Assembly (NCBI RefSeq): GCF_000269985.1
Contig: NC_016109.1
Span: 6,537,001-6,601,000, forward strand
Reading direction: 5' to 3'
Source of the DNA: Kitasatospora setae KM-6054
GTDB lineage: Bacteria; Actinomycetota; Actinomycetes; Streptomycetales; Streptomycetaceae
Length of the DNA: 64,000 nt
Made by a program: the position numbers and the translations under genes. A model generated the notes under the pieces. It saw nothing but the letters and a program-made list of their open reading frames with translations, was not told the origin of the DNA and made no database searches. Of the stretch, positions 2,052 to 58,661 are shown one piece after another (positions within the stretch are counted from its first letter, which is position 1; every line of letters starts with the position of its first letter).

Positions 2052-2151
2052 GGTTCGTCACGTTCCTTCCGGTGCCTGATGGGGTGTCACTGCCGGGTGG
2101 AGGCCGGCCGCGGAGGCCGGGGTGAGAGGGCGGGCGCGGGTCCCGCGGCGG

Positions 2152-4379: not shown

Positions 4380-4405
4380 GGTGTTCCTCTCGCCTTCGGG
4401 CGCGC

Positions 4406-5065: not shown

Positions 5066-5086
5066 GGGCCGGGGTTCCTTTCGTTC

Positions 5087-5857: not shown

Positions 5858-5935
5858 GGTGCCAACCTCCTGAGTGGGTCGGGTACAGACGGGCCGGGAC
5901 GCGCACCGGGGCCGGTCCGGCCCCGGTGGCGGGGG

Positions 5936-40543: not shown

Positions 40544-41761
40544 TCAGGCGGCGGGCTGGTCCTCCTTCCGGAGGGTGGGGGCGGCGGTGGGTGCGGGCTC
40601 GGTGGCGGTCGGGCGGGTCGGGACGGTGGCGGAGACCGCGGCCAGGGCGGCGAACAGGGCGGCCCAGGCCAGCCAGCCGGCGGTGCCGGCGGTCAGGCCG
40701 AAGCTGACCAGGCTCGGGCCGAGGACGGTCGCCCCGGCGAAGCCGAGGTTGAAGGTGGCCAGGTAGAGCGGGCGCCGGCCGGGCGGCGTGTGGGCGAGGG
40801 CGAGGCTCATGCCGCCCGCGCTGATGTACAGCTCGGCGGCGGTGAACAGCACCACGGTGAGGACCACCGCGCCGGTCGCCGCCCAGTGCCCGCCGAAGCC
40901 GGAGAGCGGGGTGGTGAGCGCGGCCAGCGCGGAGAGCAGGCCGCCCGCGACCAGCATCCGGCGGCCGCGGGCCGGGTCCTCGGAGCCGCGGCTGGTGCGC
41001 ACCTGCAGCGCCACCACCAGGACGGTGTTGAGGAGTTGGACCAGGCCGACGGTCCAGCCCGGGGCGTCCGAGTACTGGGTGATCCACAGCGGCAGGCCGA
41101 TGCCCAGCAGGATCGCCGACAGGGTCAGCGCCCCGTACACGGCGGTGACGGCGAGGAACGCCCGGTCCCGGCCGATGCCGCTGCCGCGCCGCCGGACCGG
41201 CCGCTTGACCTCCCCGGCGGACCGGAAGGTCGCCGACACCAGGGCGCAGCCGACGAACAGCAGCACCGAGGTGAACATCACCGCCCGGTACGCCCACGCC
41301 TCGCCGACCGCCACCGCGAAGGTCACCGGCAGCGCCCCGGCCGCCATGCCCGCGTTGCGCAGCGAGCGCAGCGCCGCCAACTGCCGGACGGCCTCCGCCG
41401 AGTCGGCGTCGGCGATCAGCGCGGACTGGATCAGCGGGCCGATGCTGCGGCTGAGCAGGCCGCCGACCGCGGCGCCCGCCGCGGCCACCGTGAACGAGGA
41501 CGCGCAGCCGAGCACCGCGAACGACCCGGCCCGGACCGCGAACAGGGTCAGCAGCCCGGCCCGCAGCCCGACCCGCTGGGCGAACAGGGCCACCGGGATC
41601 GCCCCGATCAGCGAGGCGAACCCGGCCAGGCCCAGCAGCAGGCCGATCTGCCCGTTGTCCAGGTGGACGGCGCTCCGCAGGTACACCGCGGAGAACGCGA
41701 GGTACATGCCCAGGCCGGTGGAGTCCGCCAGGCCGACCGCGAGCGCCCGCCGCCGGTTCAC
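40544..41761 (-). CDS. MFS exporter of the ATP-grasp operon
   Basis: 405 residues with about twelve hydrophobic segments, for example LIGAIPVALFAQRVGLRAGL and AFLAVTAVYGALTLSAILLG, of the MFS_1 type. GTG at 41761 overlaps the stop of the ATP-grasp ligase (GTGA, 41758-41761), so it is translated with the biosynthetic enzymes and probably exports their product. Uptake cannot be excluded. No similarity strong enough to name a substrate was seen. Confidence 0.85.
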   Translation of the reverse strand: MNRRRALAVGLADSTGLGMYLAFSAVYLRSAVHLDNGQIGLLLGLAGFASLIGAIPVALFAQRVGLRAGLLTLFAVRAGSFAVLGCASSFTVAAAGAAVGGLLSRSIGPLIQSALIADADSAEAVRQLAALRSLRNAGMAAGALPVTFAVAVGEAWAYRAVMFTSVLLFVGCALVSATFRSAGEVKRPVRRRGSGIGRDRAFLAVTAVYGALTLSAILLGIGLPLWITQYSDAPGWTVGLVQLLNTVLVVALQVRTSRGSEDPARGRRMLVAGGLLSALAALTTPLSGFGGHWAATGAVVLTVVLFTAAELYISAGGMSLALAHTPPGRRPLYLATFNLGFAGATVLGPSLVSFGLTAGTAGWLAWAALFAALAAVSATVPTRPTATEPAPTAAPTLRKEDQPAA

Positions 41762-43230
41762 CGGGCACCCCCGGCGGCGGCCGCGACGGAGACCGGCACC
41801 GGACCGGCCAGGGCGGCCGCCGCGACGGCGAGCTCCGGGGCGAGCGGGACCAGCGGGTCGAGCGGTTCGAGCGTGGAGGCCGGGTCGAGCGGGTCGAGCG
41901 GGTCGGGCGTGGCGGGCGTGGAGGCCGGGTCGAGCGGTTCGAGCCGGATGTCGAGGAACCGCTCGACCGCCTCGGCGGTGGTCCGGGCCCGCTCCAGGTC
42001 GGCGCCCCGGACGGTGAACACCACCAGGTGCTGGGTGACGTCCCGCCGGGTCTCCCCGCCGGGGGCGAACCGCAGGCCGATCTTCAGCAGGTCGGGGTGG
42101 GCGGCCCGGGCCTCCTCGGCGGAGCGCTGCGCGACCACCCGCCACTCGCCCGCCGGGATCGGCACGTACCGGACCCAGGCGACCGCCTTCGGCACCGGCC
42201 GCTCCAGCGGGCGCAGGCCGAGCGCGACCCGGGCGATGTCCCGGGCGAAGTCGTAGTCCGCGGCGATCAGGAACATGCTCGGCAGCGGGCCGCCGGCCCG
42301 CGCGTTCACCTCGATCACCTTCGCGCCGTCCGGGCAGAGCGCGACCTCGGTGTGCACGGCGCCGTGGGTCAGGCCGAGCGCCCGGATCGCCCGGTCCGCG
42401 CAGTCGACCGCGGCCCGCCGCGCCTCGGCGGGCAGCCGGCTGGGCAGCACCGCGCCCTCCTCGACGCAGCCGTTGCGCAGCCGCAGCCGGTCGGTCACCG
42501 CCAGGTGGTCGGCGACGCCCTCGAACAGCAGCGACTCCACGCTCACGTAGTCGGCGTACACCGAGGAGCCGTCGCCGGCGATCGGCATCGCCTCCTCCAG
42601 CAGGTACGCGTCGTCCTCCTGGAGGAACGGCGAGTTCAGGTCCGCGGCGGCGGCGAGCAGCCCGGCCAGCTCGGCCTCGTCCGTCACCACCCGGACGCCC
42701 TGGCTGCCCGCGCCCAGCGAGGGCTTGAACACGGCGGGCAGGCCGACCGCGGCCACCGCCCCGGGCAGGTCCGCCGCCCGGCGGACCTCGGCGGCCCGCG
42801 GCGAGGGCACCCCGGCCGCGGCGAACGCCCGGCGCTGGAGCGCCTTCGACTGGGCGCGGGCCACCGACTCCGGGCTGTTGCCGGGCAGGCCCAGCCGGTC
42901 GGCCAGTTCGGCCTGCGGGCGCAGCAGCAGCTCCGAGTAGGTGACGACGCCGTCGATCGGGCTGCGCCCGTGCAGGCCGGTGGCGGCCGCCACCACGGAG
43001 TCGAGGTCGGGCACGGCGAGGAACTCGCTGCCGTCCTCGCCGGGCCGCCCGTCCCGCCAGGCGGCGCGCACCGCGTCGGTGCGGCCCCACGCGGTGACGA
43101 AGGCGACGCTGACCCGGGAGGTGGCGCCGCGCGCGGCGGCGATCCCCTCCTCGGCGGACAGGCCGCCGACCCCGGCGATCAGCAGCAGGTGCGGTTCGGG
43201 GGCGGCGGAGCTGGACGAGGTGTTCGACAT
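41758..43230 (-). CDS. ATP-grasp carboxylate-amine ligase
   Basis: 490 residues. The central ATP-grasp domain shows the ATP-binding Lys in GLPAVFKPSLGAGSQGVRVV and the Mg-binding pair in KVIEVNARAGGPLPSMF. An N-terminal pre-ATP-grasp Rossmann-like part includes DGVVTYSELLLRPQAELADR and GNSPESVARAQSKALQRRAF. The C-terminal extension has a run of Asp/Pro/Leu repeats (PLDPLDPAST) that is probably disordered. Such enzymes activate a carboxylate as acyl phosphate and couple it to an amine, as in dipeptide ligases. ATG at 43230 follows the FMN reductase stop by two bases and shares the leader ATTGACCATG with the larger ATP-grasp gene. Confidence 0.88.
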   Translation of the reverse strand: MSNTSSSSAAPEPHLLLIAGVGGLSAEEGIAAARGATSRVSVAFVTAWGRTDAVRAAWRDGRPGEDGSEFLAVPDLDSVVAAATGLHGRSPIDGVVTYSELLLRPQAELADRLGLPGNSPESVARAQSKALQRRAFAAAGVPSPRAAEVRRAADLPGAVAAVGLPAVFKPSLGAGSQGVRVVTDEAELAGLLAAAADLNSPFLQEDDAYLLEEAMPIAGDGSSVYADYVSVESLLFEGVADHLAVTDRLRLRNGCVEEGAVLPSRLPAEARRAAVDCADRAIRALGLTHGAVHTEVALCPDGAKVIEVNARAGGPLPSMFLIAADYDFARDIARVALGLRPLERPVPKAVAWVRYVPIPAGEWRVVAQRSAEEARAAHPDLLKIGLRFAPGGETRRDVTQHLVVFTVRGADLERARTTAEAVERFLDIRLEPLDPASTPATPDPLDPLDPASTLEPLDPLVPLAPELAVAAAALAGPVPVSVAAAAGGAR

Positions 43231-43232
43231 GG

Positions 43233-43826
43233 TCAATTCCCCTGTGTCTGGAGAACGGTGGGATGGAGGAGGGCGTCGGCGGACAGCTGTGGCTGCCGCT
43301 GCCGCCGGTCGGCGAGGAACCCGACGAGCTCGCCGACCATGTCGCCGAGCCGGTCGAGGATCGCCGGGACGGGCCGGCCGTCGACGAAGTCCGCCGCCGA
43401 GGTCGACACCTGGGTGGGGGCCGACCAGCCGTTCAGCGCCCGGACCACGGTCCGCAGCTGGTCGCAGGCGATGGCCGCGCCGCGCGGGCCGCCGCCGTTG
43501 GCCAGCAGGCCGACCGGGCGGCCCTCGAACGCCGAACTGAGCAGCTGGTCCAGGGCGTTCTTCAGCAGGCCGCTGTACGTGCCGTGGTAGACCGGCGTGG
43601 CCAGCACCACCGCCGAGGCCCCGGCGAACCGGCGGCGCAGCGCCGCGGTCTGCCCGGACGGGTCCGGGTGGTCGTAGTCGGCCAGGTCCTGGAGGTGGTG
43701 GAACTCCAGGGACAGGTCGAGCAGGTCGTAGGGCTCCCGGTGGGCGCGGACCAGCTCGCCGACGGTGTGCAGGGCCAGCCGGCTGCGGGAGTCCTCCGCC
43801 GCGCTGCCGAGGACCCCGAGGATCAC
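43233..43826 (-). CDS. NADPH-dependent FMN reductase, SsuE-like
   Basis: 197 residues with the flavodoxin-like fold: GVLGSAAEDSRSRLALHTVG at the N-terminus and VVLATPVYHGTYSGLLKNAL, the FMN-binding region of SsuE/ArsH-type reductases. It supplies reduced FMN or reduces a small substrate with NADPH. GTG at 43826 overlaps the stop of the tri-modular ATP-grasp gene (GTGA), and its own stop is two bases before the next ATP-grasp gene. A flavin reductase between two ligases suggests a redox step on the peptide-like product. No flavin-dependent monooxygenase partner is nearby, apart from what it might itself reduce. Confidence 0.87.
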   Translation of the reverse strand: MILGVLGSAAEDSRSRLALHTVGELVRAHREPYDLLDLSLEFHHLQDLADYDHPDPSGQTAALRRRFAGASAVVLATPVYHGTYSGLLKNALDQLLSSAFEGRPVGLLANGGGPRGAAIACDQLRTVVRALNGWSAPTQVSTSAADFVDGRPVPAILDRLGDMVGELVGFLADRRQRQPQLSADALLHPTVLQTQGN

Positions 43827-46800
43827 CGCGCCACCCCCGCCGGCTCGGGCACCGGGACGGTCGCCGCCCCGCCCGCCGTTGCGTCCGCCGCCCCGTCCGC
43901 TGTGGCGCCCGCCGTCGCGCCGACCGGTTCGATCCGGATCCGGACGGCCGACTCGGCCAGCGTGACCAGCTCGTCCACCCGGGCCGCCGAGTCGGCGGCG
44001 AACACGTGGGTGCTCAGGCCGGTGCCGGAGAAGTCCGAGGCGGGCAGCAGCTCGCCGACCCGGCCCGCCACCGCGCGGTGCACGGCCGCGGCGGCCACCG
44101 CCGAGTCGTCGAACTCGGCCAGCCGCCCGTCCGAGGCGTAGTGGACCGTCCAGCCCGCGTAGGCGCCGACCGGGTCGCGGCGCAGCCGCCACGGCGAGTC
44201 GCCCGCGTCGATCAGCACCTTGGCGTGCCGCAGGTCGACGCCCCGGGTGGCCCGGAACGCCGGGACGATGCCGCCGCCGCCCGGCCGCGCCGCGACCTCG
44301 CACAGGGTCAGGCCGTCCGGCTCGACGAACGCCTCGACGTGCAGCACGCCGGAGCGGATCCGCCACGCCTCGACCACCTGCTCGACCAGCCGCCCGGCGG
44401 CGGCCCGCAGGACCGGGTCGTCCGGGGCGAGGCTGGACAGCGGCAGGCCCCGGGTGAACGCGAGGGTGTCGCGCCGGTACACCGAGACGTCCCAGAGCAG
44501 GCTGCCGTCGTGCACCACCGCGTCCAGGTGGCACATCGGGGCGTCGACGAACGCCTCCGCCAACTGCTGCCCCGGGGTGAACCGTTCGCGCAGCCAGCGG
44601 TCCAGGGCGGCCTCGTCCCGGCAGACCGCGACGCCCTGCGAACCGGACAGCTCGCGCGGCTTCAGCACCACCGCGCCGTACCGGGCCAGCAGCTCCCGGG
44701 CCAGGGCCGGCTCGTGCAGCACCCCGCCCGGGGCGTGCCGGATGCCCGCCGCCCGGGCCACCCGCTTCATCAGCGCCTTGTCGCGGACGCTGCGGGTGAA
44801 GTCCCGGTCGTCGCCCGCCGCGCCGTAGCGGGAGCGCAGCTCGGCGACCGGGCCGAGCAGCCGCTCGGAGCCCGCCGAGACCCGGTCCACCGGGTGCACG
44901 GCGTGGATCGCGTCGGCCGCCGAGTCCAGCGCGGACAGGTCGAACGGGTCGGCCTGGTGCGCCAGGTCGACCGGCGCGGCCAGCACCGGCGGCGCGCCGA
45001 TCACACTGACCCGGTACCGGTCGGCCGGCAGCACCGCCGAACCGTCCTCGTCGGTCCAGGCCCGGCCGCCCGAGCGGTCCACCAGCAGCACGTGGGTGCG
45101 CGCCAGCGACTCGTGCCGCAGCGCCGTGAACGACTCCACCCGGGCCGCGACCGCCCGGCACGCCGCGGCGTCGGCCCCGGTCACCGCGTAGCGCAGCCAG
45201 ACGGCGGCGCCGTCCAGCACCCGGCCGGCCGCCGGCGGCGCGTCCACCGAGGCCACCGCCGGCTCGTCGCGCAGCGGGCCCGGCTCGGGCGCCGCCACCA
45301 CCCGGAACCGCCCGGGCGGCGCGGCCAGCACCCGCACCAGCGCGCTCCCCGGCCGCGGCTCCGGCCAGACCGTGCCCAGCCCGAGCGCCGCCGTCGCGGC
45401 CAGTGCCAGCACCGGCCGGGGGAAGACCGCGTCCAGCAGCGCCCGGGCGTCCTGGTCCAGACCGGGCAGGACGCGGTCCGCGCCGTCCGGGTAGCGCACC
45501 AGCCCGCGCGCCGGGCCGGTGCGGCGGGCGGCCGCCTCGGCCCGCTCCAGCAGCCCGGCGGGCAGTTCGGCCGCTGCTGGCCCGGCCCGCCACAGCAGCG
45601 AGCGCGAGCCGTCCGGCTCCGCCGGGAGCTCCTCGTACACGCCCAGGTGGCGGACCGTCCCGCCGTCCAGGTACGACACCACCCGCAGGCCGGGCGCGGT
45701 GCCGGGCGCGCTGGCGGGCGCGGCCTGCGGTTCCGGGGCGCCGGGGAGCGCCGGGCAGCCCTCCAGGAGCTCGGCGAGCCGGGCCGCGCCCGGCGAGCAG
45801 CCGAGCACCGCGTCGACCGGGCGGCGCTCGCGCAGCGCGGCCAGGGCGCGGTGCGCGGCGGCCTCGTCCGGGGCGTCCAGCCACTCACCCGCGTAGCGCC
45901 GCTCCCAGCGCGCCCGGAGCGGCGCCGCGTCGGCCGCCGGGCCGGTCCACAGCACGCTGAGCCGGCCGGTGGCGCCGCCGAGCGCGGCCAGCACCCGCTC
46001 CGGGGCCAGCTCGGCGGAGCCCTCGGCGGCCGGGTCGAGCACCAGCAGCAGGTGCGGGGCGCCGTCGGTCCGGTCGGGGGACGCCTGGTCGGCGGTGTCG
46101 GCAGTGGCGTCCCGCTCGATCTCCACCCGGACGGCGGCGGCCGCCCGGTCGGCGGCGGCGCACGCCTCCGCGACGGTGCCGCCGACCGCCAGCACGTGCC
46201 CGTACCGGTCGTAGTTGCAGTCCAGCGCGCGCACCCGGTCGCCCGGCGCCACCCCGACCCGCAGCTCGGCCACCTCCGGGGCGGCGGCGGGCAGCGCGAC
46301 CGCGCGCACCGTCCCCGGGTACGGGCTCCACAGCTGCCGCAGGGCGACCGCGGCCACCGGCTCGTCCACCTCCGGCACCGGCCGGCCGGCCGCCAGCGCG
46401 GCCAGGTCGGCGGTGACGCTGCGGCCGAGGGCGAGCTCCAGCTGCCGGGTCACCGCGTGGCCGGCGATCCGGCCGTTGACCTCCAGCAGCTCCGGGCCGG
46501 TCGGGGTGACCAGCAGCTCGATGTGCATCGGACTGTTCCGCACCCCCAGCGCCTCCACCACCTCCCGGACGAACTCCCGTGCCGCGCCCCGTTGTTCGAA
46601 CTCGGCGGGGAAGTGGCCGCCCAGCTCCGCGGTCGTCCCGGGGCGGGACGGCAGCCGCTCGGAGAAGCCGTAGAAGAGGATCCGGCCGTCCTGCACCAGC
46701 AGTTCGGCGCTGATGTGCCGGCCGAACCGGAACTCCTCCAGCAGCACCTGATCGGGACCCGGGGCGAACGCGGCGGGCGCGGCCGCCGGGGGCGCGAACG

Positions 46801-47338
46801 CCGCGCGCAGCGCCCGCTCCACCTGCTCCGGACGCCACGCCACGGTGACGCCCTGCGAGGCCCAGCCCGCGTTCGGCTTCACCACCAGCGGGTAGCCGAG
46901 ACCGGCCGCTGCGGCCAGCCCCTCGGCGGCCGAACCGGCCGTCCGCCAGCGCAGCGTGCCCAGCCCGGCCGCGTCCAGCCGGGCCCGGACGGCGGCCTTG
47001 TCGCGCATCAGCAGCACGGTCTCCAGCGACTCCCCGGGCACGCCCAGGTCACGGGCCAGCGCGGCGGCGGTCGGCATGCAGTGCTCGGTGACGCAGACGA
47101 CCCCGTCCACCGGGTTCGGGCCGAGCCGGTCACGCACCGACCCGGCCAGGTCGAGGACGTCCCGGGTGGACGGCACCTCGATGATCCGGGCGGCCCGGTG
47201 CCGGTTCTCGAAGCCGGGCACCCCGGCGTAGACCCGGAGGTCCTCGACGATCACGCTGACCTCGGCCCCGGCGTCCACCAGGTCGTCCACGAAGCCGAAG
47301 CCGCGGGTGAGGGCAACCTCCAGCATGACGATGTGCAT
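43823..47338 (-). CDS. Giant protein with two intact ATP-grasp modules and a degenerate middle module
   Basis: 1171 residues. Module 1 (about 1-410) has VVKPNAGWASQG with Lys154, an EEF pair near 201 and ELLEVNGR with Glu286/Asn288. Module 3 (about 765-1140) has VVLKPRELSGSQG with Lys893 and LCEVAARPGGGG with Glu1014. The middle part (about 427-750) keeps a pre-ATP-grasp-like Rossmann segment (LLLVLDPAAEGSAELAPERV) and a C-terminal-like segment but shows no ATP-binding Lys loop or Glu/Asn metal site. Each active module should form one amide-type bond through an acyl phosphate, so this protein may join three building blocks. ATG at 47338 has GAAGG upstream. It is the first gene of a coupled four-gene operon. 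Confidence 0.88.
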   Translation of the reverse strand: MHIVMLEVALTRGFGFVDDLVDAGAEVSVIVEDLRVYAGVPGFENRHRAARIIEVPSTRDVLDLAGSVRDRLGPNPVDGVVCVTEHCMPTAAALARDLGVPGESLETVLLMRDKAAVRARLDAAGLGTLRWRTAGSAAEGLAAAAGLGYPLVVKPNAGWASQGVTVAWRPEQVERALRAAFAPPAAAPAAFAPGPDQVLLEEFRFGRHISAELLVQDGRILFYGFSERLPSRPGTTAELGGHFPAEFEQRGAAREFVREVVEALGVRNSPMHIELLVTPTGPELLEVNGRIAGHAVTRQLELALGRSVTADLAALAAGRPVPEVDEPVAAVALRQLWSPYPGTVRAVALPAAAPEVAELRVGVAPGDRVRALDCNYDRYGHVLAVGGTVAEACAAADRAAAAVRVEIERDATADTADQASPDRTDGAPHLLLVLDPAAEGSAELAPERVLAALGGATGRLSVLWTGPAADAAPLRARWERRYAGEWLDAPDEAAAHRALAALRERRPVDAVLGCSPGAARLAELLEGCPALPGAPEPQAAPASAPGTAPGLRVVSYLDGGTVRHLGVYEELPAEPDGSRSLLWRAGPAAAELPAGLLERAEAAARRTGPARGLVRYPDGADRVLPGLDQDARALLDAVFPRPVLALAATAALGLGTVWPEPRPGSALVRVLAAPPGRFRVVAAPEPGPLRDEPAVASVDAPPAAGRVLDGAAVWLRYAVTGADAAACRAVAARVESFTALRHESLARTHVLLVDRSGGRAWTDEDGSAVLPADRYRVSVIGAPPVLAAPVDLAHQADPFDLSALDSAADAIHAVHPVDRVSAGSERLLGPVAELRSRYGAAGDDRDFTRSVRDKALMKRVARAAGIRHAPGGVLHEPALARELLARYGAVVLKPRELSGSQGVAVCRDEAALDRWLRERFTPGQQLAEAFVDAPMCHLDAVVHDGSLLWDVSVYRRDTLAFTRGLPLSSLAPDDPVLRAAAGRLVEQVVEAWRIRSGVLHVEAFVEPDGLTLCEVAARPGGGGIVPAFRATRGVDLRHAKVLIDAGDSPWRLRRDPVGAYAGWTVHYASDGRLAEFDDSAVAAAAVHRAVAGRVGELLPASDFSGTGLSTHVFAADSAARVDELVTLAESAVRIRIEPVGATAGATADGAADATAGGAATVPVPEPAGVAR

Positions 47339-47434
47339 GGTCAATCCTTCAGGGAGGGCGGTAGGTCCCGAATCTTCCGCACCCGGACCACGCCGCCCAG
47401 CACGGCGCCCACACCACGTCAGGTCCCCTCCCGG

Positions 47435-47475
47435 CGGCCGGGCGGCGGGAGGGCGGCGGGAGGGCGGCGGCCGCC
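47435..47475. repeat. G-rich tandem repeats in the divergent promoter region
   Basis: Repeated GGGCGGCGGGA units followed by a GGCGGCCGCC dyad lie in the 255-bp gap between the two divergent ATP-grasp-locus operons. The spacing of G runs could allow a G-quadruplex. The gap has no gene. Confidence 0.55.
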
Positions 47476-47593
47476 CGAGGTGACGGACTGGCCGCCGGGC
47501 GCTGTCCGCCGCCCCGCCCGCCCGACGACAGTGGGGACCCCGTGGCGCGCCCGCCGGCGCGGCCCGAACAACCCGAGAAAGGTGGGGGACCGC

Positions 47594-48178
47594 ATGTCCA
47601 CCGAACCCCTGCGCGTGGCCGTCATCATCGCGAGCGTCCGCAAGGGACGCTCCGGCCCGACCATCGCCAACTGGTTCACCGGCGTCGCCGGCCGGCGCGG
47701 GAGCCTGGCCGTCGACCTGGTCGACCTCGCCGACTACGACCTCCCCAACAGCCTCACCGACCAGCCCGACCAGGAACTCGCCGCCAAGCTCGCCGACATC
47801 GGCGGCCGACTCGACCGGGCCGAAGCCTTCGTCGTCGTCACCCCCGAGTACAACCACTCCTTCCCGGCCTCGCTCAAGGCCCTGATCGACTGGCACACCA
47901 CCCAGTGGCAGGCCAAGCCGGTCGGCTTCGTCGGCTACGGCGGCCTGGCCGGCGGCCAGCGCGCCATCGAGCACCTCCGGCAGATCTTCGCCGAGTGCCA
48001 CATGGTCAGCGTCCGCGACGCCGTCGGATTCCACAGCCACTGGGGCCTGTTCGACAACGAGGGCAACCTGATCGACCCCACCCACCACGAATCCGCCGCC
48101 AAGTCGCTGCTCGACGGCCTGGAGTGGTGGGGCACCGCGCTGCGGGACAAGAAGGCACAGCAGCCCTACGGCTCCTGA
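47594..48178 (+). CDS. NADPH-dependent FMN reductase, ArsH/azoreductase-like
   Basis: 194 residues. It starts VAVIIASVRKGRSGPTIANW (FMN phosphate loop about 11-20) and carries VVVTPEYNHSFPASLKALID, the PEYN motif of the NADPH-dependent FMN reductase family. It is distinct from the SsuE-like copy on the other strand. ATG at 47594 is the best start (AAAGGTGGGGGACCGC upstream). It is divergent from the large ATP-grasp gene and followed 5 bp later by an MFS gene. Quinone, nitro or azo reduction and flavin supply are all possible. Confidence 0.9.
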   Translation: MSTEPLRVAVIIASVRKGRSGPTIANWFTGVAGRRGSLAVDLVDLADYDLPNSLTDQPDQELAAKLADIGGRLDRAEAFVVVTPEYNHSFPASLKALIDWHTTQWQAKPVGFVGYGGLAGGQRAIEHLRQIFAECHMVSVRDAVGFHSHWGLFDNEGNLIDPTHHESAAKSLLDGLEWWGTALRDKKAQQPYGS

Positions 48179-48183
48179 CCCTG

Positions 48184-49458
48184 ATGCCGACCACTCGCCG
48201 CACGGGCGCCGGCGTGGGTGCGGGGACGGGCACGGGCACGGTTGCCGGCCGGACCACCGCCCGCACCGCAGCCCGCCCCGCCACCGCCCGTCCCGCCGCT
48301 GGGCGTTCCCGCTCCGCCGGGCCGCCCGTCGCGGGGCTGGTGGCGGCGCTGGCGCTGGTCGGCACGCTGGTGGTGGGGCAGCTCTACGCGACGATCCCGC
48401 TGCTGCCGCGGCTCGGTGCCGCCTGGGGGGTCCCCGGCTCCACCGCGACCTGGGCGACCAGCGCCTTCGCCGCCCCGTACGCGGTCGTCTCGCTGCTCAG
48501 CGGGCAACTGGCCCGCCGGTACGGCACGCGGGCGGTGGCGGTGACCGGCGTCGTGGTGCTGGCGCTGGCCACCGCGTGCGTCCCGTTCGGCGGCGGCCTC
48601 GCCGCCGGACTCGCGCTGCGGGCCGTGCAGGGCGCGGGCGCGGGCGTCTACGTGCCGATGGCGTACGCCTGCCTGAACGCCCGGGTCGCGCCCGCCCGGC
48701 TGCCGTTCGCGCTCACCGTCGTCTCGGCCTGCATGGCCGGCACCGTCGTCACCGGCCAGCTCGAATCCCAGCTGCTCGCCTCGCTGCTGGGCTGGCGCGG
48801 GGTGTTCCTGGCCTGGGCGCCGCTGCTGCTGCTCGGCGCCGCCGTCCTGCACCGGACGCTGCCCGCCGACCGCCCCGGACGCTCCGCGGCCGTCCCCGCG
48901 GCCCGGCCCGCGATCCGGCCGGTCCGGCTGCTGCCGCTCTACCTGGCCGCGCTGCTCTGCTCCACCGGCATGACCGCCGTCTACACCGGCCTGCAACTGT
49001 ACGGGCCGCCCGCACTCGTCCGGGACGACCAGGCGATGCTCGCCCTGCGCGCCACCGCCCTGCCCGCCCTGCTCACCGCCGTCCTGCTCGCCCCGCTGCT
49101 CGGCCGCGTCCCCGCCCCCCGCCGGGCCACCGCCGGCTTCGCCCTCGCGGCCCTCGGCGCCCTCGGCACCGCCGCGACCGGCCGGCACACCGGCGGGCTC
49201 GCCCTCGCCCTCGCCGTCTTCATGCTGGGCGTCGCCACCGTCGGCCCGGCCCTGGTCCAGCACCTCGGCGCCCGCACCACCGGCACCCCGAACGCCCCGA
49301 CCGCGATGGCCCTCTACGGCTTCACCCTCAACATCGGCGGCGCCCTCGGCGCCCAACTCCCCAAAGCCACCGCCACCACCACCGGCCTCGGCTGCCTCCT
49401 CGCCACCCTCCTCACCACCTGCGCGGCCCTCCTCGCCACCCACCGCACCCCACCCTGA
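48184..49458 (+). CDS. MFS transporter
   Basis: 424 residues. After a long Ala/Arg/Thr-rich N-terminal extension (about 45 residues) there are twelve hydrophobic segments including GLVAALALVGTLVVGQLYAT and VQGAGAGVYVPMAYACLNAR. The layout resembles the YnfM/YgaY-like exporters. ATG at 48184 lies 5 bp after the FMN reductase stop, so both are one transcript. It may be a second exporter for the product of the ATP-grasp locus or for its intermediates. Confidence 0.87.
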   Translation: MPTTRRTGAGVGAGTGTGTVAGRTTARTAARPATARPAAGRSRSAGPPVAGLVAALALVGTLVVGQLYATIPLLPRLGAAWGVPGSTATWATSAFAAPYAVVSLLSGQLARRYGTRAVAVTGVVVLALATACVPFGGGLAAGLALRAVQGAGAGVYVPMAYACLNARVAPARLPFALTVVSACMAGTVVTGQLESQLLASLLGWRGVFLAWAPLLLLGAAVLHRTLPADRPGRSAAVPAARPAIRPVRLLPLYLAALLCSTGMTAVYTGLQLYGPPALVRDDQAMLALRATALPALLTAVLLAPLLGRVPAPRRATAGFALAALGALGTAATGRHTGGLALALAVFMLGVATVGPALVQHLGARTTGTPNAPTAMALYGFTLNIGGALGAQLPKATATTTGLGCLLATLLTTCAALLATHRTPP

Positions 49459-52110: not shown

Positions 52111-53334
52111 ATGACTTCCATCGACGACTCGTTGGTCCGCGATCCCGGCGTGCTGCGCTCGGACATGGTCCGTGCGCTGCGCGAGCAGGACGGGATCAGG
52201 TCCGAGCCGGTCGCCGCCGCCTTCGCGGCGGTGCCCCGCCACCGGTTCGCACCGGAGGCGCCTCTGGAGCTCGTCTACGATCCGCACCGCACGGTGCCGG
52301 TCAAGAAGGACGAGAACGGCCTGGAGCTCAGCGTCATGTCTGCCGCTCATCTGCAGGCCGTGATGCTGGAGCAGGCCGGAGTCGAGCCCGGCATGAAGGT
52401 ATTGGAGATCGGTTCCGGCGGCGTCAACGCCGCCTATCTCCAGGAACTCGTCGGCAAGGCGGGCGAGGTCACCACCGTCGACATCGACTGCGATGTCATC
52501 GACCGGGCCCGACGATGCCTGGACGATGCGGGATACCCCCAGGTGCGGACGGTCCTGGCCGACGGTGAGAGCGGCGTGCCCGACGGCTCTCCGTACGACC
52601 TGATCACCGTCACGGCCGCCGCGTGGGACATCCCCCCGTCGTGGATCAGCGGTCTGGCGCCGTCCGGCCGTCTCGTCGTGCCGCTGACAGTCTGTGGCAC
52701 GACCCGCTCGATCGCCTTCGACCGTGACCGCGGCCCCGAGAGCGACGACGAGGGTCTGGTCAGCCGTTCCTACAGCCTGGCCCGGTTCGTGCCCATGCAG
52801 GGAGAAGGGGCGGCGGAAGAACGCCGGGTACTGCTCCGCGAGGGTGTGGCCGTACAGACCGACGACGTGCGGGTACCGCTCGACGCCCAGGCGCTGAACC
52901 GCGCGCTCGACGGGCCCAGGCTGGAGTGCTGGTCCGGGGCCGCGTACGACCTGCCCGACGAGTTGGAGCTGTACCTGACGTTCAACCTGTCGAGCCCGGC
53001 CCGCCTGCACGCCGCCAACGACGTGGTGGAGCGCGGCCTCGTGGAGGCGTCCGCGCTGTTCGGGGTGCCCGTCCTGGTGAGCGAGGACAGCTTCGCCTAC
53101 CGCACCCGCCGCGAGAACGCGGACACCGGCGGCTTCGAGAGCGGCGTGGTCGCCCACGGGCCCGGTGCCCAGGCGCTCGCCGACGAGTACGCCACGCTGC
53201 TTCGCCGCTGGGCCCGTGACCACCGTCGTCGGGGTGCCGCGACGTTCCGCTACCTGCCGGGCCCCGTGCCCGTTCCCCTGCCCCGGAACGCCGTCCGGCG
53301 ACGCCACGGCATCGTCACGGCGACCTGGCGCTGA
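52111..53334 (+). CDS. FxLD-system methyltransferase, protein-L-isoaspartate O-methyltransferase type
   Basis: 407 residues. The methyltransferase fold shows VLEIGSGGVNAAYLQELVGK for S-adenosylmethionine binding, VPRHRFAPEAPLELVYDPHR as in PCMT proteins, and ITVTAAAWDIPPSWISGLAP. A C-terminal extension of some 170 residues is typical for the lanthipeptide-linked group. These enzymes methylate an Asp side chain of a modified peptide, enabling isoaspartate or succinimide formation. ATG at 52111 gives the usual length. The precursor gene follows 67 bp downstream, supporting its place in the FxLD system. Confidence 0.88.
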   Translation: MTSIDDSLVRDPGVLRSDMVRALREQDGIRSEPVAAAFAAVPRHRFAPEAPLELVYDPHRTVPVKKDENGLELSVMSAAHLQAVMLEQAGVEPGMKVLEIGSGGVNAAYLQELVGKAGEVTTVDIDCDVIDRARRCLDDAGYPQVRTVLADGESGVPDGSPYDLITVTAAAWDIPPSWISGLAPSGRLVVPLTVCGTTRSIAFDRDRGPESDDEGLVSRSYSLARFVPMQGEGAAEERRVLLREGVAVQTDDVRVPLDAQALNRALDGPRLECWSGAAYDLPDELELYLTFNLSSPARLHAANDVVERGLVEASALFGVPVLVSEDSFAYRTRRENADTGGFESGVVAHGPGAQALADEYATLLRRWARDHRRRGAATFRYLPGPVPVPLPRNAVRRRHGIVTATWR

Positions 53335-53401
53335 GACTCCCGGGCCCCGACCTGGGGTCCGGGCCGTGCACCATCAACCGATCTGCCCCAAGGAGGCATG
53401 C

Positions 53402-53584
53402 ATGACCGTGCAGTTGGAGGGCCCCATCGCGTCCGCGCGGCCGGCCGACGAGCAGTACGACCTGGCCGACTTCGAGCTGGACATCACCATCGTCGAGGGC
53501 GGTCCCGCCGCGGACCAGCTCATCCGCCTGACGAACGACGGCTGCAACTCCACGTGCGCCACCGCGTGCGTGAGCTGCCCGTAG
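53402..53584 (+). CDS. FxLD-type lanthipeptide precursor
   Basis: 60 residues. The leader contains the family-defining FxLD motif in YDLADFELDITIVEGG (about residues 22-37). The core, LIRLTNDGCNSTCATACVSC plus a final Pro, has four Cys and five Ser/Thr, suitable for dehydration and thioether rings; an Asp in it could be the methylation or isoaspartate target. ATG at 53402 follows AAGGAGG; an ATG four bases earlier is in another frame. The genes around it provide the dehydratase, cyclase and methyltransferase. Cleavage probably occurs after the GG pair or nearby. Confidence 0.9.
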   Translation: MTVQLEGPIASARPADEQYDLADFELDITIVEGGPAADQLIRLTNDGCNSTCATACVSCP

Positions 53585-53669
53585 CCGGTCGGAGCGCGTT
53601 CATCACGGTGCCCGGCCGCGCCCAGCCCATGGGCGCGGCCGGGCACCGCTCGGCAGAGAAGGGGGGCTC

Positions 53670-56564
53670 ATGTACCGCCACATCGACGCGGCACTGGTTC
53701 GGGCTGCTGCCTGGAACCTCGACCACCAGACGTCCTGGCCGGACCTCGTCAGCGAGCGAGCAGACCCGGAATCGTGGCGAGCATGGCTGCAACAGGCTTG
53801 GCAGAAACAGGACTTCGCAGGTGCCGTTACGGTCGCCAGCCCCGATCTCGCGAGCCGGGTGGAACAGATCCGCACCGGTCGACCGATCCAGAGCGCTGAC
53901 GTTCGGCGTACGGTGCTCGCGGTTCTGCGCTACCTGCTGCGAGCCCGCACCCGCGCCACTCCGTTCGGCCTGTTCGCCGGTGTCGCCCCCGCGCGCATCG
54001 GTGCCACGGCCACGCTGCGCGTGGGCAACGAGCACCATGCCACCTCCAGGACCGACGCGGCGTCCAGCACGGCGCTGATCGATCGGTTCGAGCAGCACCC
54101 GGCGCTGCGGACCCACCTGGTGCTGACCGCCTCCACCCTCGCGGTGGAGCGTGACGGACACGTGGTGATCGAGCACCTCCCGAGCGGAACCGCCGAGGTG
54201 GGACCGCAACACGTGCACGTGCGCCTGACCGCTCCCGTCCGCGCGGCGCTCCAGGGCGCGCGAGCACCGATCGGGTGGGGTTACCTCGCTGCGCAACTGG
54301 CCGACGCCTTCCCGAGCGCACCGGTCATCGTGATCGACAAGCTCATCTCGGGCATGGTCGAGCAGCGGCTCCTGGTCACCAGCCTGCGCCCCGCGATGAC
54401 GGTCACCGACCCGCTCGCCGCCCTCCACGGCCACCTGTCACATCTCCCGCCCGTCGATGCGGACGAGATACGTCGGACGCCCAGGAACATGGTCGACCTG
54501 CGGGTGGACTGGAAGTTGACCGTCCCCGAGGTAGTGGCCACCGAGGCGGCCGCGGCGGCGCGGGCGCTTACCCGGCTGGCTCCCCGAGCTGCCCTGACCG
54601 GCTGGGCCGAATGGCACGGCCGGTTCCTGGAGCGGTACGGGCCGCAGGCGACCGTGCCCGTTCTGGAAGCCGTCGACGCGCTCGGATACCCGTCCGGCTT
54701 CCTCGGTGCCACCACCGCGCCGACGACCTCCCCGCTGCCCGAGCGCGACGGTCGGCTCATCAGGCTCGCCCACAGCGCAGGCATGCAGCGCCGCCTGGAA
54801 GTCGAGCTCGACGACGCCGCGTTGGAGGAACTGGCCGCCACCCACCCCGGCCACCCGGTGCAGCCGAGCACCGAACTGACGGTTCGCATCCACGCAACCA
54901 GCCTCCCCGCCCTCCAAGGAGGCGAGTTCACGCTGCACGTCGTCGGTGTGGCGCGTTCGGCCGGTGCCACTGCGGGCCGTTTCCTGGACCTGCTGGGGGA
55001 CACCGACCGCGACCGCATGACCAAGGCGTACGCCGAGCTGCCGGCAGTGCACCGGGGCGCACTCCTCGCACAGATCAGTTCGCCACCGCTGTCCACTCGC
55101 GCCGGGAACGTTGCCCGAGCCCCACAGGCAGCCGATCTGGTCATCTCGCTCGGAGAGCACCACAGCCAGGACACCGGCCTGGTTCCCGTGACGGACCTGG
55201 CGGTCACCGCCGATGCCGAACAGCTGCACTTGGTCTCGCTCTCCCGTGACCGCCCCCTGCACACCCTGCTCCTCAACGCCGTGGACCTGGGCCACCACTC
55301 CCATCCACTGGCCCGCTTCCTGGCCGAGGCACCCGTCGCGCTGGCCGTCCCCTGCACCGGGTTCCTGTGGGGCATCGCCCCCTCCCATCTGCCGTTCCTA
55401 CCGGCTCTGCGCTACGGGCGGACGATCCTGTCCCCGGCCCGCTGGCGCCTCGCCCACAACGACCTGCCTACTGCCCAAGCACCATGGCCCGAGTGGGACC
55501 AGGCCCTGACCCGGTGGCGCCGTGACGTACGCCTGCCCGAACGGGTCCACCTGACCGAAGCCGACCAGCGCATCGCCTTGGACCTCGCCGAGTCCTCGCA
55601 CCGGGCTGTGTTGCGCGCACACCTGGCGCGCGACGGCACAGTGCTGCTGCACCCCGCTTCCGAAGCCGAGGACCTGGGTTGGACCGGCGGGCGGGCACAC
55701 GAGATCGTCATCCCCCTGGTCGCTGACCAGAACAGGGCGCCGGTCCGAACGCGAGGCCGGCCCGTGGGCCGGGAGCACGGGCACCTGCCCGGATGCGACA
55801 ACCGCGTCCAACTCCACCTGTACGGGCACCGCGAGCGGCAGGACCCGATCCTGACGCGGCACCTGTCGGCCCTGTTGAGCGAACTGGGCTCCTCCCGCTG
55901 GTGGTTCGTCCGGTACCGCGATTCCGGCGACCACCTCCGCCTCCGGCTGAACTGCAAGCCCGGGGCGCTCGGCGCCGCTTTCGAGTCCCTCGGAGAGTGG
56001 GCCCGGCACCTGCGCCGCCGTGGCCTGATCACCCACGCCAGTGTGGAGACCTACCTCCCGGAGACCGCGCGGTTCGGCGGCCCCACCGCGATCGGGGCGG
56101 CCGAGAGGTTCTTCGCCACCGACTCCGCTGCCGTCGTGGCCCAACTCGCCGCCGTCGGCACGGTTGACGCGGGTGCCCTGACCTCCGCGAGCATGGTCGA
56201 CCTCGCCACCGGCCTGCTCGGCGACAGCGCCGCGGCGATGCGATGGCTCATCGAACACACCCGCACCAGCGCCACTGCCCCCGACCGTGTCGTCTACCGC
56301 CAAGCGGTCGACCTGGTGAACAACCCGCCGGCCGTCCTGGGCGGGCGGGTCGCCACCACCTGGTCCGCGCGACGCGAAGCACTGATCGCCTACCGGGGCG
56401 CGCTCCTGGCCACGGACACACGCCCCGAGGACCTGCTGCCAGACCTGTTGCACCTCCACCACGCCCGGATGCACGGGCCCGACCTGGACGAGGAGCGGAG
56501 ACACCTGCACCTGGCCAGGGCAGCCGCCTTGAGCTGGACGGCACGAGCACGGAGGACACCGTGA
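53670..56564 (+). CDS. Lantibiotic dehydratase LanB, full length
   Basis: 964 residues joining an N-terminal glutamylation domain (TRATPFGLFAGVAPARIG and FLWGIAPSHLPFLPALRYGR) and a C-terminal elimination (SpaB_C) domain (about 690-964: SSRWWFVRYRDSGDHLRLRL and VETYLPETARFGGPTAIGAA). LanB uses glutamyl-tRNA to activate Ser/Thr of the precursor and then eliminates glutamate to give dehydro residues. ATG at 53670 follows AGAAGGGGGG. Its stop overlaps lanC (GTGA). The presence of a fused SpaB_C domain plus another free one downstream is notable. Confidence 0.92.
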   Translation: MYRHIDAALVRAAAWNLDHQTSWPDLVSERADPESWRAWLQQAWQKQDFAGAVTVASPDLASRVEQIRTGRPIQSADVRRTVLAVLRYLLRARTRATPFGLFAGVAPARIGATATLRVGNEHHATSRTDAASSTALIDRFEQHPALRTHLVLTASTLAVERDGHVVIEHLPSGTAEVGPQHVHVRLTAPVRAALQGARAPIGWGYLAAQLADAFPSAPVIVIDKLISGMVEQRLLVTSLRPAMTVTDPLAALHGHLSHLPPVDADEIRRTPRNMVDLRVDWKLTVPEVVATEAAAAARALTRLAPRAALTGWAEWHGRFLERYGPQATVPVLEAVDALGYPSGFLGATTAPTTSPLPERDGRLIRLAHSAGMQRRLEVELDDAALEELAATHPGHPVQPSTELTVRIHATSLPALQGGEFTLHVVGVARSAGATAGRFLDLLGDTDRDRMTKAYAELPAVHRGALLAQISSPPLSTRAGNVARAPQAADLVISLGEHHSQDTGLVPVTDLAVTADAEQLHLVSLSRDRPLHTLLLNAVDLGHHSHPLARFLAEAPVALAVPCTGFLWGIAPSHLPFLPALRYGRTILSPARWRLAHNDLPTAQAPWPEWDQALTRWRRDVRLPERVHLTEADQRIALDLAESSHRAVLRAHLARDGTVLLHPASEAEDLGWTGGRAHEIVIPLVADQNRAPVRTRGRPVGREHGHLPGCDNRVQLHLYGHRERQDPILTRHLSALLSELGSSRWWFVRYRDSGDHLRLRLNCKPGALGAAFESLGEWARHLRRRGLITHASVETYLPETARFGGPTAIGAAERFFATDSAAVVAQLAAVGTVDAGALTSASMVDLATGLLGDSAAAMRWLIEHTRTSATAPDRVVYRQAVDLVNNPPAVLGGRVATTWSARREALIAYRGALLATDTRPEDLLPDLLHLHHARMHGPDLDEERRHLHLARAAALSWTARARRTP

Positions 56565-57808
56565 CCACCACAGCCACGGCTGCCACCACCGCGCTGACCG
56601 CAGCCGACCGGCTCGCCCGGGCACTGGCCGACCCGAACACCGTATGGCCACTCGGCCACCCCGACGGCGGCCGTTCCTGGCCGCAGTCGCTGGCAGGAGG
56701 AGCCGCGGGCATCGCCCTGCTGCACGTCGAGCGCGCCCGCACCGGCTACGGGGACTGGGACACCGCGCACACCTGGCTCCTCGCCGCCCTGGACGGGGAC
56801 ATCAGCGCGGCAGCCAACGCCAACCTGTACTTCGGCGCGCCGGCGCTCGCTTTCGTCACGTCCCTCGCGGCGGCCGCGTCGAGCCGCTACCAGCGCGTCC
56901 TGGAACGCCTGGACACCGCGACCGCCACGGTCACCCGCAGCCGCCTGGCCGCCGCCCGCCACCGCATCGACCGCGCCCAGCGGCCCCCCATGGAAGAGTT
57001 CGACCTGATCCAGGGCCTGTCCGGACTGGGCGCCTACCACCTGAGCCGCCACCCCGACCACGAGATCACCCGGGAGGTGCTCGCCTACCTCGTCCGCCTG
57101 ACCGAGCCGATGCCCGACCCGAGCGGGCTGCCGCCCTGGTGGATGGACGTCGGACCGACCGGCGCACCCCACCCCGACTACCCCGGCGGCCACGGCAACT
57201 TCGGCACCGCCCACGGCATCGGCTCCGTCCTGTCCATCCTGTCCAGGGCCCTGCTCCACGGCCTGGCCGTGCCCGGCACGGCCGACGCGGTCGAGCGGAT
57301 CTGCTCCTGGACCGACCGCTGGCGCCAGGACGACGAGACGGGCCCTTGGTGGCCGGGCCAGCTCACCGTCGGACAGACGGTCGGCGGGCACCTCGATCCG
57401 GCCCTGCACCCCCGACCGTCCTGGTGCTACGGCGTCAGCGGAACCGCCCGTGCCCAGCAGTTGGCCGGACTCGCACTCGGCGATCCGAAGCGGGTGAACG
57501 ATGCCGAGAAGGCGATCCTCGCGGCCCTGCGCGACCCGCGGCAACTGGCCGAGCTCCCCGATACCGGCCTGTGCCACGGCACGGCCGGCCTGCTGCATGC
57601 CGCATGGCGGATGGCCACCACCACCGGAAACCGCGCGATCGCGACGGAACTGCCCTACCTGGCCGACCGATTGGTCACCGCGCTCGGCCACGACCGTCTC
57701 GACCCGGAACTGCTCGATGGAGCCGCCGGGGCGGCGCTCGCCCTGCACACCTTCGGCACGGGGCTCACGCCCGCACCGCGCTGGGACACCTTCCTCGCTC
57801 TGGCATGA
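56561..57808 (+). CDS. Lanthionine cyclase LanC
   Basis: 415 residues of the LanC alpha-toroid. The zinc ligands are Cys in PSWCYGVSGTARAQQLAGLA and Cys-His in TGLCHGTAGLLHAAWR, with upstream GHGNFGTAHGIGSVLSILSR around the active site. The protein adds Cys thiols to dehydro residues of the FxLD core to make (methyl)lanthionine rings. GTG at 56561 overlaps the lanB stop. Length is typical. Together with LanB it makes the system a class I-type lanthipeptide pathway. Confidence 0.93.
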   Translation: MTTTATAATTALTAADRLARALADPNTVWPLGHPDGGRSWPQSLAGGAAGIALLHVERARTGYGDWDTAHTWLLAALDGDISAAANANLYFGAPALAFVTSLAAAASSRYQRVLERLDTATATVTRSRLAAARHRIDRAQRPPMEEFDLIQGLSGLGAYHLSRHPDHEITREVLAYLVRLTEPMPDPSGLPPWWMDVGPTGAPHPDYPGGHGNFGTAHGIGSVLSILSRALLHGLAVPGTADAVERICSWTDRWRQDDETGPWWPGQLTVGQTVGGHLDPALHPRPSWCYGVSGTARAQQLAGLALGDPKRVNDAEKAILAALRDPRQLAELPDTGLCHGTAGLLHAAWRMATTTGNRAIATELPYLADRLVTALGHDRLDPELLDGAAGAALALHTFGTGLTPAPRWDTFLALA

Positions 57809-57824
57809 ACCCCGGAGGCCCACG

Positions 57825-58661
57825 ATGCACCAACTCCCCTGGCGCCAAGCCAACATCATGTTCCACGACTGGGAGCAAGCCGAGACCACCGCCTTGGCCC
57901 ACCTCGTCCCGCTTCTTCGTGCCGCCGAGGCCGAAGGCACCGTCGCCGCGTGGTTCGTCATCCGCAAGAGACCCTGCTGGCGCTTGCGCTACCGGCCTGT
58001 CTCCGACGGGCGTGACCCCGTCGCGCAAGGGCTCGACCGGATGACGGCCGCCCGGTACATCACGGGCTGGACGCAGAGCGTCTACGAGCCCGAGGTCCAC
58101 GCCTTCGGCGGCCCCGAAGCCATGGACAGCGCTCACCGGCTCTTCCACCGCGACAGTCGCGGCCTCACCGACTACCTGGCGGGCCAGGTCGGCACCCACC
58201 GCCGCGAGACCTCCCTGCTCCTGTGCAACCTCATGCTGCGATCAGCCGGGCTGGACTGGTACGAGCAGGGCGACGTGTGGGCCCGAGTCGCCGCCCACCG
58301 CGCCCAGCCCGCCGGCACCGCAGCAGGCGGCCACGAGCAGCTGCAGGCCGCCGTCCGCCGCCTGCTCTCGGTGGACCCGCACCACGCTCTGCGACCGGAC
58401 GGCCCGCTCGCCGGTGCCGCCGAGTGGGCCCGCGCCTACGCCGACGCCGGGGAGGAGACGGCCGACCTCCACGCCGCGGGGAAGCTCCACCGCGGCCTGC
58501 GCGACGTCCTGGCGCACCACGTGATCTTCGCCTGGAACCGGATCGGCCTGCCGTACGCCGTCCAGGCCGCGCTCACCTTCGCCGCCAAGACCGTCGTCTT
58601 CGGCCCGGACCCCGTCACCACGTCCGAGAGGAGTGCGGCCAGCCATGTGGAGACTCCCTGA
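57825..58661 (+). CDS. Stand-alone thiopeptide-type (SpaB_C-like) domain protein
   Basis: 278 residues related to the C-terminal elimination domain of LanB and to the thiopeptide-type biosynthesis domain: ANIMFHDWEQAETTALAHLV, then AAWFVIRKRPCWRLRYRP, VYEPEVHAFGGPEAMDSAHR, and a C-terminal NRIGLPYAVQAALTFAA. It is separate from the full-length LanB upstream, so it may do an extra elimination or cyclisation, or bind the leader. ATG at 57825 follows CCGGAGG. Its end overlaps the next gene by 17 bases. Catalytic role uncertain. Confidence 0.82.
   Translation: MHQLPWRQANIMFHDWEQAETTALAHLVPLLRAAEAEGTVAAWFVIRKRPCWRLRYRPVSDGRDPVAQGLDRMTAARYITGWTQSVYEPEVHAFGGPEAMDSAHRLFHRDSRGLTDYLAGQVGTHRRETSLLLCNLMLRSAGLDWYEQGDVWARVAAHRAQPAGTAAGGHEQLQAAVRRLLSVDPHHALRPDGPLAGAAEWARAYADAGEETADLHAAGKLHRGLRDVLAHHVIFAWNRIGLPYAVQAALTFAAKTVVFGPDPVTTSERSAASHVETP

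Follow-up and report, generated by a model that had tools for sequence, protein, structure and literature searches.

We analysed a 64,000-nucleotide stretch of the Kitasatospora setae KM-6054 genome (NC_016109.1, positions 6,537,001 to 6,601,000; hereafter the window), which is assembled as a single 8.78-Mb contig, and focused on a block of four minus-strand genes. In order, these encode a three-part ATP-grasp protein, an NADPH-dependent flavin mononucleotide (FMN) reductase family protein, a stand-alone ATP-grasp ligase (AG2), and a predicted major facilitator superfamily (MFS) exporter (Table 1). An earlier reading of the letters without database searches (the sequence-only reading) had described a 1171-residue protein in which two complete ATP-grasp modules flank a middle one without the ATP and metal motifs, coupled to the three other genes. 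Pfam searches and a residue alignment of six sequences confirmed the former, and gene calls with 4-nucleotide overlaps or a 2-nucleotide gap confirmed the latter. The window MFS protein had no Pfam match at E 0.001; its ortholog in Kitasatospora sp. GP82 (64.8% identical) matched MFS_1. No NCBIfam model matched the three-part architecture at its cut-off, and a known primary-metabolism fusion was not supported, as the NCBIfam matches lay far under their cut-offs. A role in anti-phage defence was rejected because none of the four proteins searched matched PADLOC.

Table 1. Features of the ligase block and of its divergent neighbours (window coordinates)
Feature	Coordinates	Strand	Description
Three-part ATP-grasp protein	43823-47338	minus	1171 residues, ATG start; gene call, Pfam, five orthologs
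N module (residues 1-420)	46079-47338	minus	ATP-grasp_4 and LAL_C2 (Pfam)
Middle module (residues 425-748)	45095-46066	minus	putative pseudo-ligase; degenerate AG2 copy lacking the ATP-binding segment
C module (residues 747-1140)	43919-45100	minus	ATP-grasp; conserved residues and PDB profile match
NADPH-dependent FMN reductase family protein	43233-43826	minus	197 residues, GTG start; 4-nucleotide overlap with the three-part stop
AG2, BacD-like ATP-grasp ligase	41758-43230	minus	490 residues; starts 2 nucleotides past the FMN reductase stop
MFS exporter (predicted)	40544-41761	minus	405 residues, GTG start; 4-nucleotide overlap with AG2
FMN reductase-like gene	47594-48178	plus	divergent neighbour
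MFS gene beside the plus-strand FMN reductase	ends 49458	plus	gene call

The domain search proposed by the sequence-only reading found ATP-grasp in the N module, weakly in the C module (30.8 bits over the whole protein against a cut-off of 27, with no single stretch passing alone), and no Pfam match in the middle module. The residues K114, K154, E274, E286, N288, and R290 of the N module and K854, K893, E1002, E1014, and R1018 of the C module were invariant in all six sequences, including that of the window; the five residues named earlier (K154, E286, N288, K893, and E1014) are among them. The third metal position of the C module was Ala instead of Asn in all six. AG2 matched ATP-grasp_4, and its K129, K169, E295, E307, and N309 were invariant in 10 of 10 AG2 sequences. 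Profile comparison with the PDB paired the N module with the L-amino acid ligase BL00235 (1.6e-17), the C module with RizA (1.7e-18), and AG2 most closely with BacD (3.8e-43). These intact active-site residues suggest that the three ATP-grasp sites, in AG2 and in the N and C modules, are probably active.

The middle module had diverged furthest, with 36 of 322 positions invariant across the six sequences, compared with 150 of 405 in the N module and 145 of 392 in the C module. Alignment of profiles with hhalign related four middle modules to four AG2 sequences (probability 97.2%, E 4.2e-11, 309 columns), and gave E 0.12 and 0.15 against the N and C modules, respectively; BLASTP linked the window's middle module directly to the window's AG2 (4e-6). 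Within AG2 segment 100-225, 94 of 126 residues were missing from the window's middle module, and 79 of these were missing in all six sequences; the RPT161 module had lost a further stretch. AG2 residues K129 and K169 had no counterpart, and E307, N309, and R311 were replaced in six of six, such that the ATP-site lysines and the metal-binding Glu and Asn of an active ligase are absent, as the sequence-only reading had claimed, while the modelled fold is retained. Structure prediction with AlphaFold2, another of the proposed checks, gave a model with a predicted local distance difference test score (pLDDT) of 84.1 and a predicted template modelling score of 0.83. Residues 1-320 of this model, from which a low-confidence stretch was excluded, resembled BL00235 (3vot; Z 21.8, 296 residues, root mean square deviation 3.6) and BacD (Z 20.8, 304 residues, root mean square deviation 4.2), although the alignment behind the model held 6 middle-module and 9 AG2 rows and biases the fold toward ATP-grasp. 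The middle-module profile by itself had no convincing PDB match (best E 0.01, a ShuY-like protein), and a full-length model of the three-part protein from a 4-row alignment (mean pLDDT 36.4) was not used. Based on profile similarity to AG2 and on the model from this AG2-biased alignment, we take the middle module to have arisen as a copy of the partner ligase and to have degenerated, with loss of the ATP-binding segment.

The three-part protein occurs in few genomes. A query with residues 450-1171 matched 4 of 70 genomes of the genus at 1e-30, and only in the K. setae genome (G000) and one other (G073) did the match span the middle and C modules; among 41 near relatives, two matched, namely K. 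setae itself and a genome with the C module only. A middle-module profile gave 10 matches at 1e-6 in 394 genomes of the family, six of which (G000, G073, G098, G110, G279, and G383) extended over the whole profile or the larger part of it and four (G046, G047, G060, and G202) over its first third only. Three of the latter (G046, G047, and G060) are single AG2-like ligases clustered with a phosphoenolpyruvate (PEP) mutase protein, judging by sequence, and in G202 the AG2 relative lies close to a 2-oxoglutarate (2OG)-Fe-oxygenase-like gene. In stretches L037, L038, and L039, AG2-like single ligases accompany genes read as PEP-mutase-like, sulfate-activation-like, and dioxygenase-like, and these clusters are possibly phosphonopeptide pathways. 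A scan of 84,980 species with two short peptide patterns, which is not a census, yielded three named loci, in Kitasatospora sp. GP82, Streptomyces sp. RPT161, and Streptantibioticus ferralitis. Among 72,556 plasmid records, 221 matched, and none covered at least 80% of the three-part protein at one place.

We then compared genomic contexts. The survey of the gene neighbourhood that had been proposed with the locus was carried out on five other loci, and in all five the ligase block adjoined toxoflavin-type genes and a gene for a cysteine-synthase-like, pyridoxal phosphate (PLP)-dependent enzyme; a 2OG-Fe oxygenase was present at four of the five and a serine acetyltransferase at three. The ligase genes of GP82, RPT161, and S. 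ferralitis are interspersed with those for a WD40 protein, GTP cyclohydrolase II, a sulphatase-modifying-factor-like protein, the PLP enzyme, a methyltransferase, and the 2OG-Fe oxygenase (domain searches were run on GP82 and RPT161); RPT161 and S. ferralitis also carry a serine-acetyltransferase-like gene. The RPT161 cluster ends in a gene for a VOC protein, and comparable genes occupy this position in GP82 and S. ferralitis. G279 and G383 share with the window the order MFS, AG2, FMN reductase, three-part protein, but there the divergent neighbour is an operon for WD40, GTP cyclohydrolase, ToxD, PLP enzyme, and methyltransferase; the 2OG oxygenase and acetyltransferase follow in G383, and the G279 stretch examined ends after the methyltransferase. 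In G098, matches placed the three-part and ToxD genes about 3 kb apart on one contig, in a stretch that was not viewed.

In K. setae, the corresponding gene set falls outside the window, at G000:C1:6632828-6639648 (about 95.8-102.6 kb in window coordinates). A distance of 48.5 kb separates it from the three-part gene, and the DNA in between holds other gene sets, including a lanthipeptide cluster. This remote half encodes a WD40/ToxC-like protein, GTP cyclohydrolase II (confirmed by Pfam), ToxD, a methyltransferase, the cysteine-synthase-like PLP enzyme, a 2OG-Fe oxygenase, and a serine-acetyltransferase-like protein; its neighbours are a gene for a SARP-type regulator and one resembling DDE transposases. 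The sequence-only reading was supported in taking the locus for one of peptide or amide assembly without ribosomes or a non-ribosomal peptide synthetase, with three probably active sites, an inert middle module, and an exporter, but the locus would be only half of a pathway whose other part is remote. A DDE_5 transposase-like gene (L047 11209-12567, by Pfam) and a look-alike in another genome (L036 3704-4885) both adjoin a SARP-type regulator and the pathway. Small proteins of 106 (L048 123-443) and 110 residues (L036 19076-19408) follow the serine-acetyltransferase-like gene in two genomes; the former matched no Pfam family.

The K. setae ToxD homolog matched PDB entry 7spq, deposited as 'Serine/threonine kinase ToxD', with E 5.4e-98 (next match, 1.5e-19). 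The best PDB match of the methyltransferase was 5ufm/5ufn (E 4.3e-15; next, 6.9e-9), a similarity that leaves room for a different substrate; 5ufm is the 1,6-didemethyltoxoflavin N1-methyltransferase of B. thailandensis (PMC8642396; PMC11794875; here and below, cited work is represented by its openly licensed titles, abstract openings, and passages). The WD40 domain was identified by Pfam in GP82, the K. setae protein being 67.3% identical to the GP82 protein, with generic WD40 proteins as PDB matches; the toxoflavin protein ToxC has been proposed to aid N-N bond formation (preprint PMC12154649). The best PDB matches of the PLP enzyme were cysteine synthases. Pseudoiodinine genes encode WD-40, GTP cyclohydrolase, sulphatase-modifying factor, methyltransferase, glyoxalase, and RibD proteins, with 1,6-didesmethyltoxoflavin as a proposed intermediate (PMC9911603), and the gene types considered here match most of that set (all those listed except RibD), the VOC gene being the one at the end of the RPT161 cluster. 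ToxM is a VOC enzyme (PMC5749703). The best sequence match of the RPT161 VOC protein was YycE, and a self-resistance role for it is therefore only a lead.

To relate the two halves, we counted their occurrence in the family. The three-part gene was found in 6 and ToxD (E <= 1e-60) in 31 of 394 genomes, with both in 6 (Fisher test, 1.5e-7, kinship ignored and the two 394-genome samples taken as the same draw), and the PLP enzyme and methyltransferase adjoined ToxD in all six three-part genomes compared. At six ToxD loci lacking the three-part gene, no nearby relative (1e-5) of the PLP enzyme, methyltransferase, oxygenase, acetyltransferase, or ATP-grasp proteins was found; these loci were hand-picked from 25, mostly as the most similar, and the equally similar G294 and G394 were left out. 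Thus, within this family the PLP enzyme and its companions occur together with the ligases, an association that points to the PLP enzyme as the likely source of a ligase substrate. In the 8.78-Mb K. setae genome, moreover, 48.5 kb separate the two halves. Based on these data, we favour a reading in which the window block and the remote half constitute one pathway for an azapteridine-plus-peptide product, split in two in this genome, and we assign it a probability of roughly 0.55 from sequence comparison. Alternatively, the ligase block could work alone, exporting a peptide that it builds from common or other amino acids, with the remote half making its own small heterocycle. ToxD without the three-part gene is indeed common (25 of the 31 ToxD genomes), and in K. 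setae the halves lie far apart with other gene sets between them and yield conflicting trees, as described below. However, all six genomes found with the three-part gene also have ToxD, the two sets adjoin at every other locus viewed, and the remote half includes the PLP enzyme, methyltransferase, oxygenase, and acetyltransferase, for which the six cassettes without the three-part gene showed no relative at 1e-5; we therefore regard two independent products as unlikely.

In the ligase-block tree, K. setae grouped with GP82, RPT161, and S. ferralitis (100/100), and a grouping with G383 was rejected (p 2.3e-7). In the toxoflavin-half tree, it grouped with G383 (99/99), and a grouping with the GP82 clade was rejected (p 7e-4). 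Both p values are optimistic, since the clades were named after identities had been seen. Two single genes departed from the pattern: the acetyltransferase, which was not in the tree, was nearer to that of S. ferralitis (69.4%) than to that of G383 (64.9%), and methyltransferase identities showed no clear preference (58.4-62.8%). In G383, the ligase block lies between the DDE-like gene and the WD40 gene, where K. setae, unlike G383, has no ligase gene. These comparisons are most simply explained if a copy of the ligase block from another lineage either took the place of the original or was newly acquired, and came to lie 48.5 kb away, so that the pathway would have been reassembled from two sources.

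Several observations weigh against a joint pathway. Because the trees conflict and each alternative was rejected, the two halves were probably acquired separately and perhaps do not work together, which weakens the case for a joint pathway without removing it. No RibD/ToxE-like deaminase was recognised among the gene calls of the remote half, the only region inspected for one and itself domain-searched in part. Nor did a ToxM-like VOC gene adjoin the remote half, the only relative lying at 3.79 Mb (51%). Plasmids of Streptomyces, Azospirillum, Agrobacterium, and Halobacillus also carry a WD40 gene beside a ToxD relative, with no ATP-grasp genes annotated in those stretches (the gene tables are incomplete); in Halobacillus, the 11-kb stretch includes genes for a PLP enzyme and an FMN reductase next to the cassette, and thus the PLP enzyme can occur apart from ligases. 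The split position, the conflicting trees, the missing VOC neighbour, and the end branch of K. setae in the ligase tree, the longest there (0.50 versus 0.09-0.43 for the others), would also suit a block left over from a pathway that K. setae has lost or replaced. We consider this very improbable, as all four reading frames are uninterrupted and overlap or follow closely on one another, and the ligases retain their active-site residues.

Under the joint pathway, GTP would first be converted to a 7-azapteridine-type heterocycle with an N-N bond, as homology indicates. The acetyltransferase would then make O-acetylserine, which the PLP enzyme would condense with a nucleophile to a beta-substituted alanine; the heterocycle is the simplest candidate for this nucleophile, by way of a guess. 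Taken by itself, this PLP-enzyme route is tentative, and somewhat doubtful. AG2 and the N and C modules, with their intact active sites, would next join the residue to one to three amino acids at the expense of ATP, the order of ligation and the number of residues again being guesses. The middle module would probably provide a docking site or a spacer, possibly standing in for one AG2 subunit at a dimer interface; in genomes that have it, the FMN reductase might keep a redox-active product reduced or take part in a redox step; and the peptide would finally be exported by the MFS protein. It is further conceivable, though speculative and rather unlikely as a whole, that the products form a new class of peptides with an azapteridinyl (toxoflavin-like) amino acid, that the dead AG2 copy docks its partner, and that uptake by competitors releases a redox-cycling warhead.

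The ATP-grasp sites might instead act within heterocycle assembly, for example by amidating a GTP-derived pyrimidine or an amino acid that supplies ring atoms, with a small azapteridine rather than a peptide as product. The interleaving of ligase and cassette genes in three genomes would accord with this, as would the glycine conjugation in the proposed pseudoiodinine route (PMC9911603). However, psdA-G, reported to be sufficient in P. putida, include no ATP-grasp protein among the annotations given in the passages of that paper, the six cassettes without the three-part gene had no relative of these ATP-grasp proteins at 1e-5, and the closest sequence matches are the dipeptide ligases BacD, BL00235, and RizA. 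We consider such a role improbable.

The proposed joint pathway resembles known systems in parts. In bacilysin biosynthesis, an L-amino-acid-ligase-type ATP-grasp enzyme (BacD) ligates an unusual amino acid without a non-ribosomal peptide synthetase. The ligases here are of the same type as BacD and the phosphonoalamide enzymes PnaB and PnaC, but two ligases and a pseudo-ligase share one chain, and a toxoflavin-type cassette stands in for the anticapsin or phosphonate route. The nearest working parallel is phosphonoalamide biosynthesis, in which tripeptides containing an unusual amino acid are reported to be made by two ATP-grasp ligases, with data suggesting that one modulates the other (PMC11867202); by analogy, such modulation may be a role of the fused pseudo-ligase. 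With toxoflavin and pseudoiodinine (psdA-G) biosynthesis, the gene set shares the WD40 protein, GTP cyclohydrolase II, the sulphatase-modifying-factor-like ToxD, the S-adenosylmethionine-dependent methyltransferase, and, in RPT161, the VOC protein. It differs in the three ATP-grasp sites, the cysteine-synthase-like PLP enzyme, the serine acetyltransferase, the 2OG-Fe oxygenase, and the MFS protein, in being split in two in this genome, and in lacking RibD among the remote-half gene calls. Clusters with several ATP-grasp genes (for example L016, in G081) likewise contain an FMN reductase, an MFS protein, and genes read from sequence as serine-acetyltransferase-like and cysteine-synthase-like; unlike the present locus, they encode four separate single ATP-grasp proteins, with stand-alone C-module relatives and no fusion, and no toxoflavin-type genes were recognised among the gene calls of the 19-kb stretch. 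The four consecutive single ATP-grasp-like genes at L016 6102-14848 are a possible unfused counterpart.

The titles, abstract openings, and passages of the open-licence literature contained neither a description of such a locus or of a fused pseudo-ligase nor a link between toxoflavin and ATP-grasp enzymes. The fused architecture may thus be without precedent in that literature, and papers on azapteridine peptides could exist elsewhere. If true, the joint pathway would join flavin-like azapteridine chemistry with that of ATP-grasp peptide antibiotics. A natural multi-ligase fusion with a built-in pseudo-ligase would make the role of ligase-ligase contacts directly testable, and the case would show that mining of single loci can miss half of such a pathway.

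Two other features had been attributed to the locus. The 10-mer ATTGACCATG does precede both ligase genes (2 matches in the window versus 0 expected in shuffles), but it was absent from all 11 ortholog ligase starts; a shorter TGACC preceded 4 of the 11, namely both genes in RPT161 and S. ferralitis, and its TGA is the stop of the upstream gene, likewise before AG2 in the window. The shared leader is therefore present without being evidence of a shared control element, and the argument for common origin or control did not hold. The divergent plus-strand FMN reductase and MFS pair had been thought to complete the locus. Relatives of this reductase (1e-40) occurred in 52 of 70 genomes of the genus, K. 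setae included, yet none was found at that threshold in GP82, the other genus genome with the three-part protein, and at two other divergently arranged loci the divergent neighbour is a WD40 gene. The pair is therefore probably outside the system, a mere neighbour of the ligase block. The minus-strand FMN reductase gene of the block is present at four of the six three-part loci and missing at two.

Several other gene sets were seen. The window contains a class I lanthipeptide cluster (52111-58661) with a PCMT-type methyltransferase, LanB, LanC, and a separate Lant_dehydr_C protein, together with a short Cys-rich precursor-like peptide ending at 53584, which appears only in the list of open reading frames. 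At 849-7111, genes for 3-deoxy-D-arabino-heptulosonate 7-phosphate synthase, isochorismatase, anthranilate-synthase-like, and short-chain dehydrogenase/reductase proteins form a set of the phenazine/3-hydroxyanthranilate type (partly by Pfam). A second such set, read from sequence, lies at about G000:C1 6613-6628 kb (L046 and L047) beside AMP-ligase, FAD-NAD, and cyclase-like genes, look-alikes of which flank the three-part loci in L035 and L040. Elsewhere in K. setae (L018 3020-14967; G000:C1 about 1.981-1.993 Mb), two ATP-grasp genes accompany genes read as radical-SAM-like, MetRS-like, lysine-hydroxylase-like, and MFS-like, a set that recalls the MetRS-type pathways of PMC2922099.

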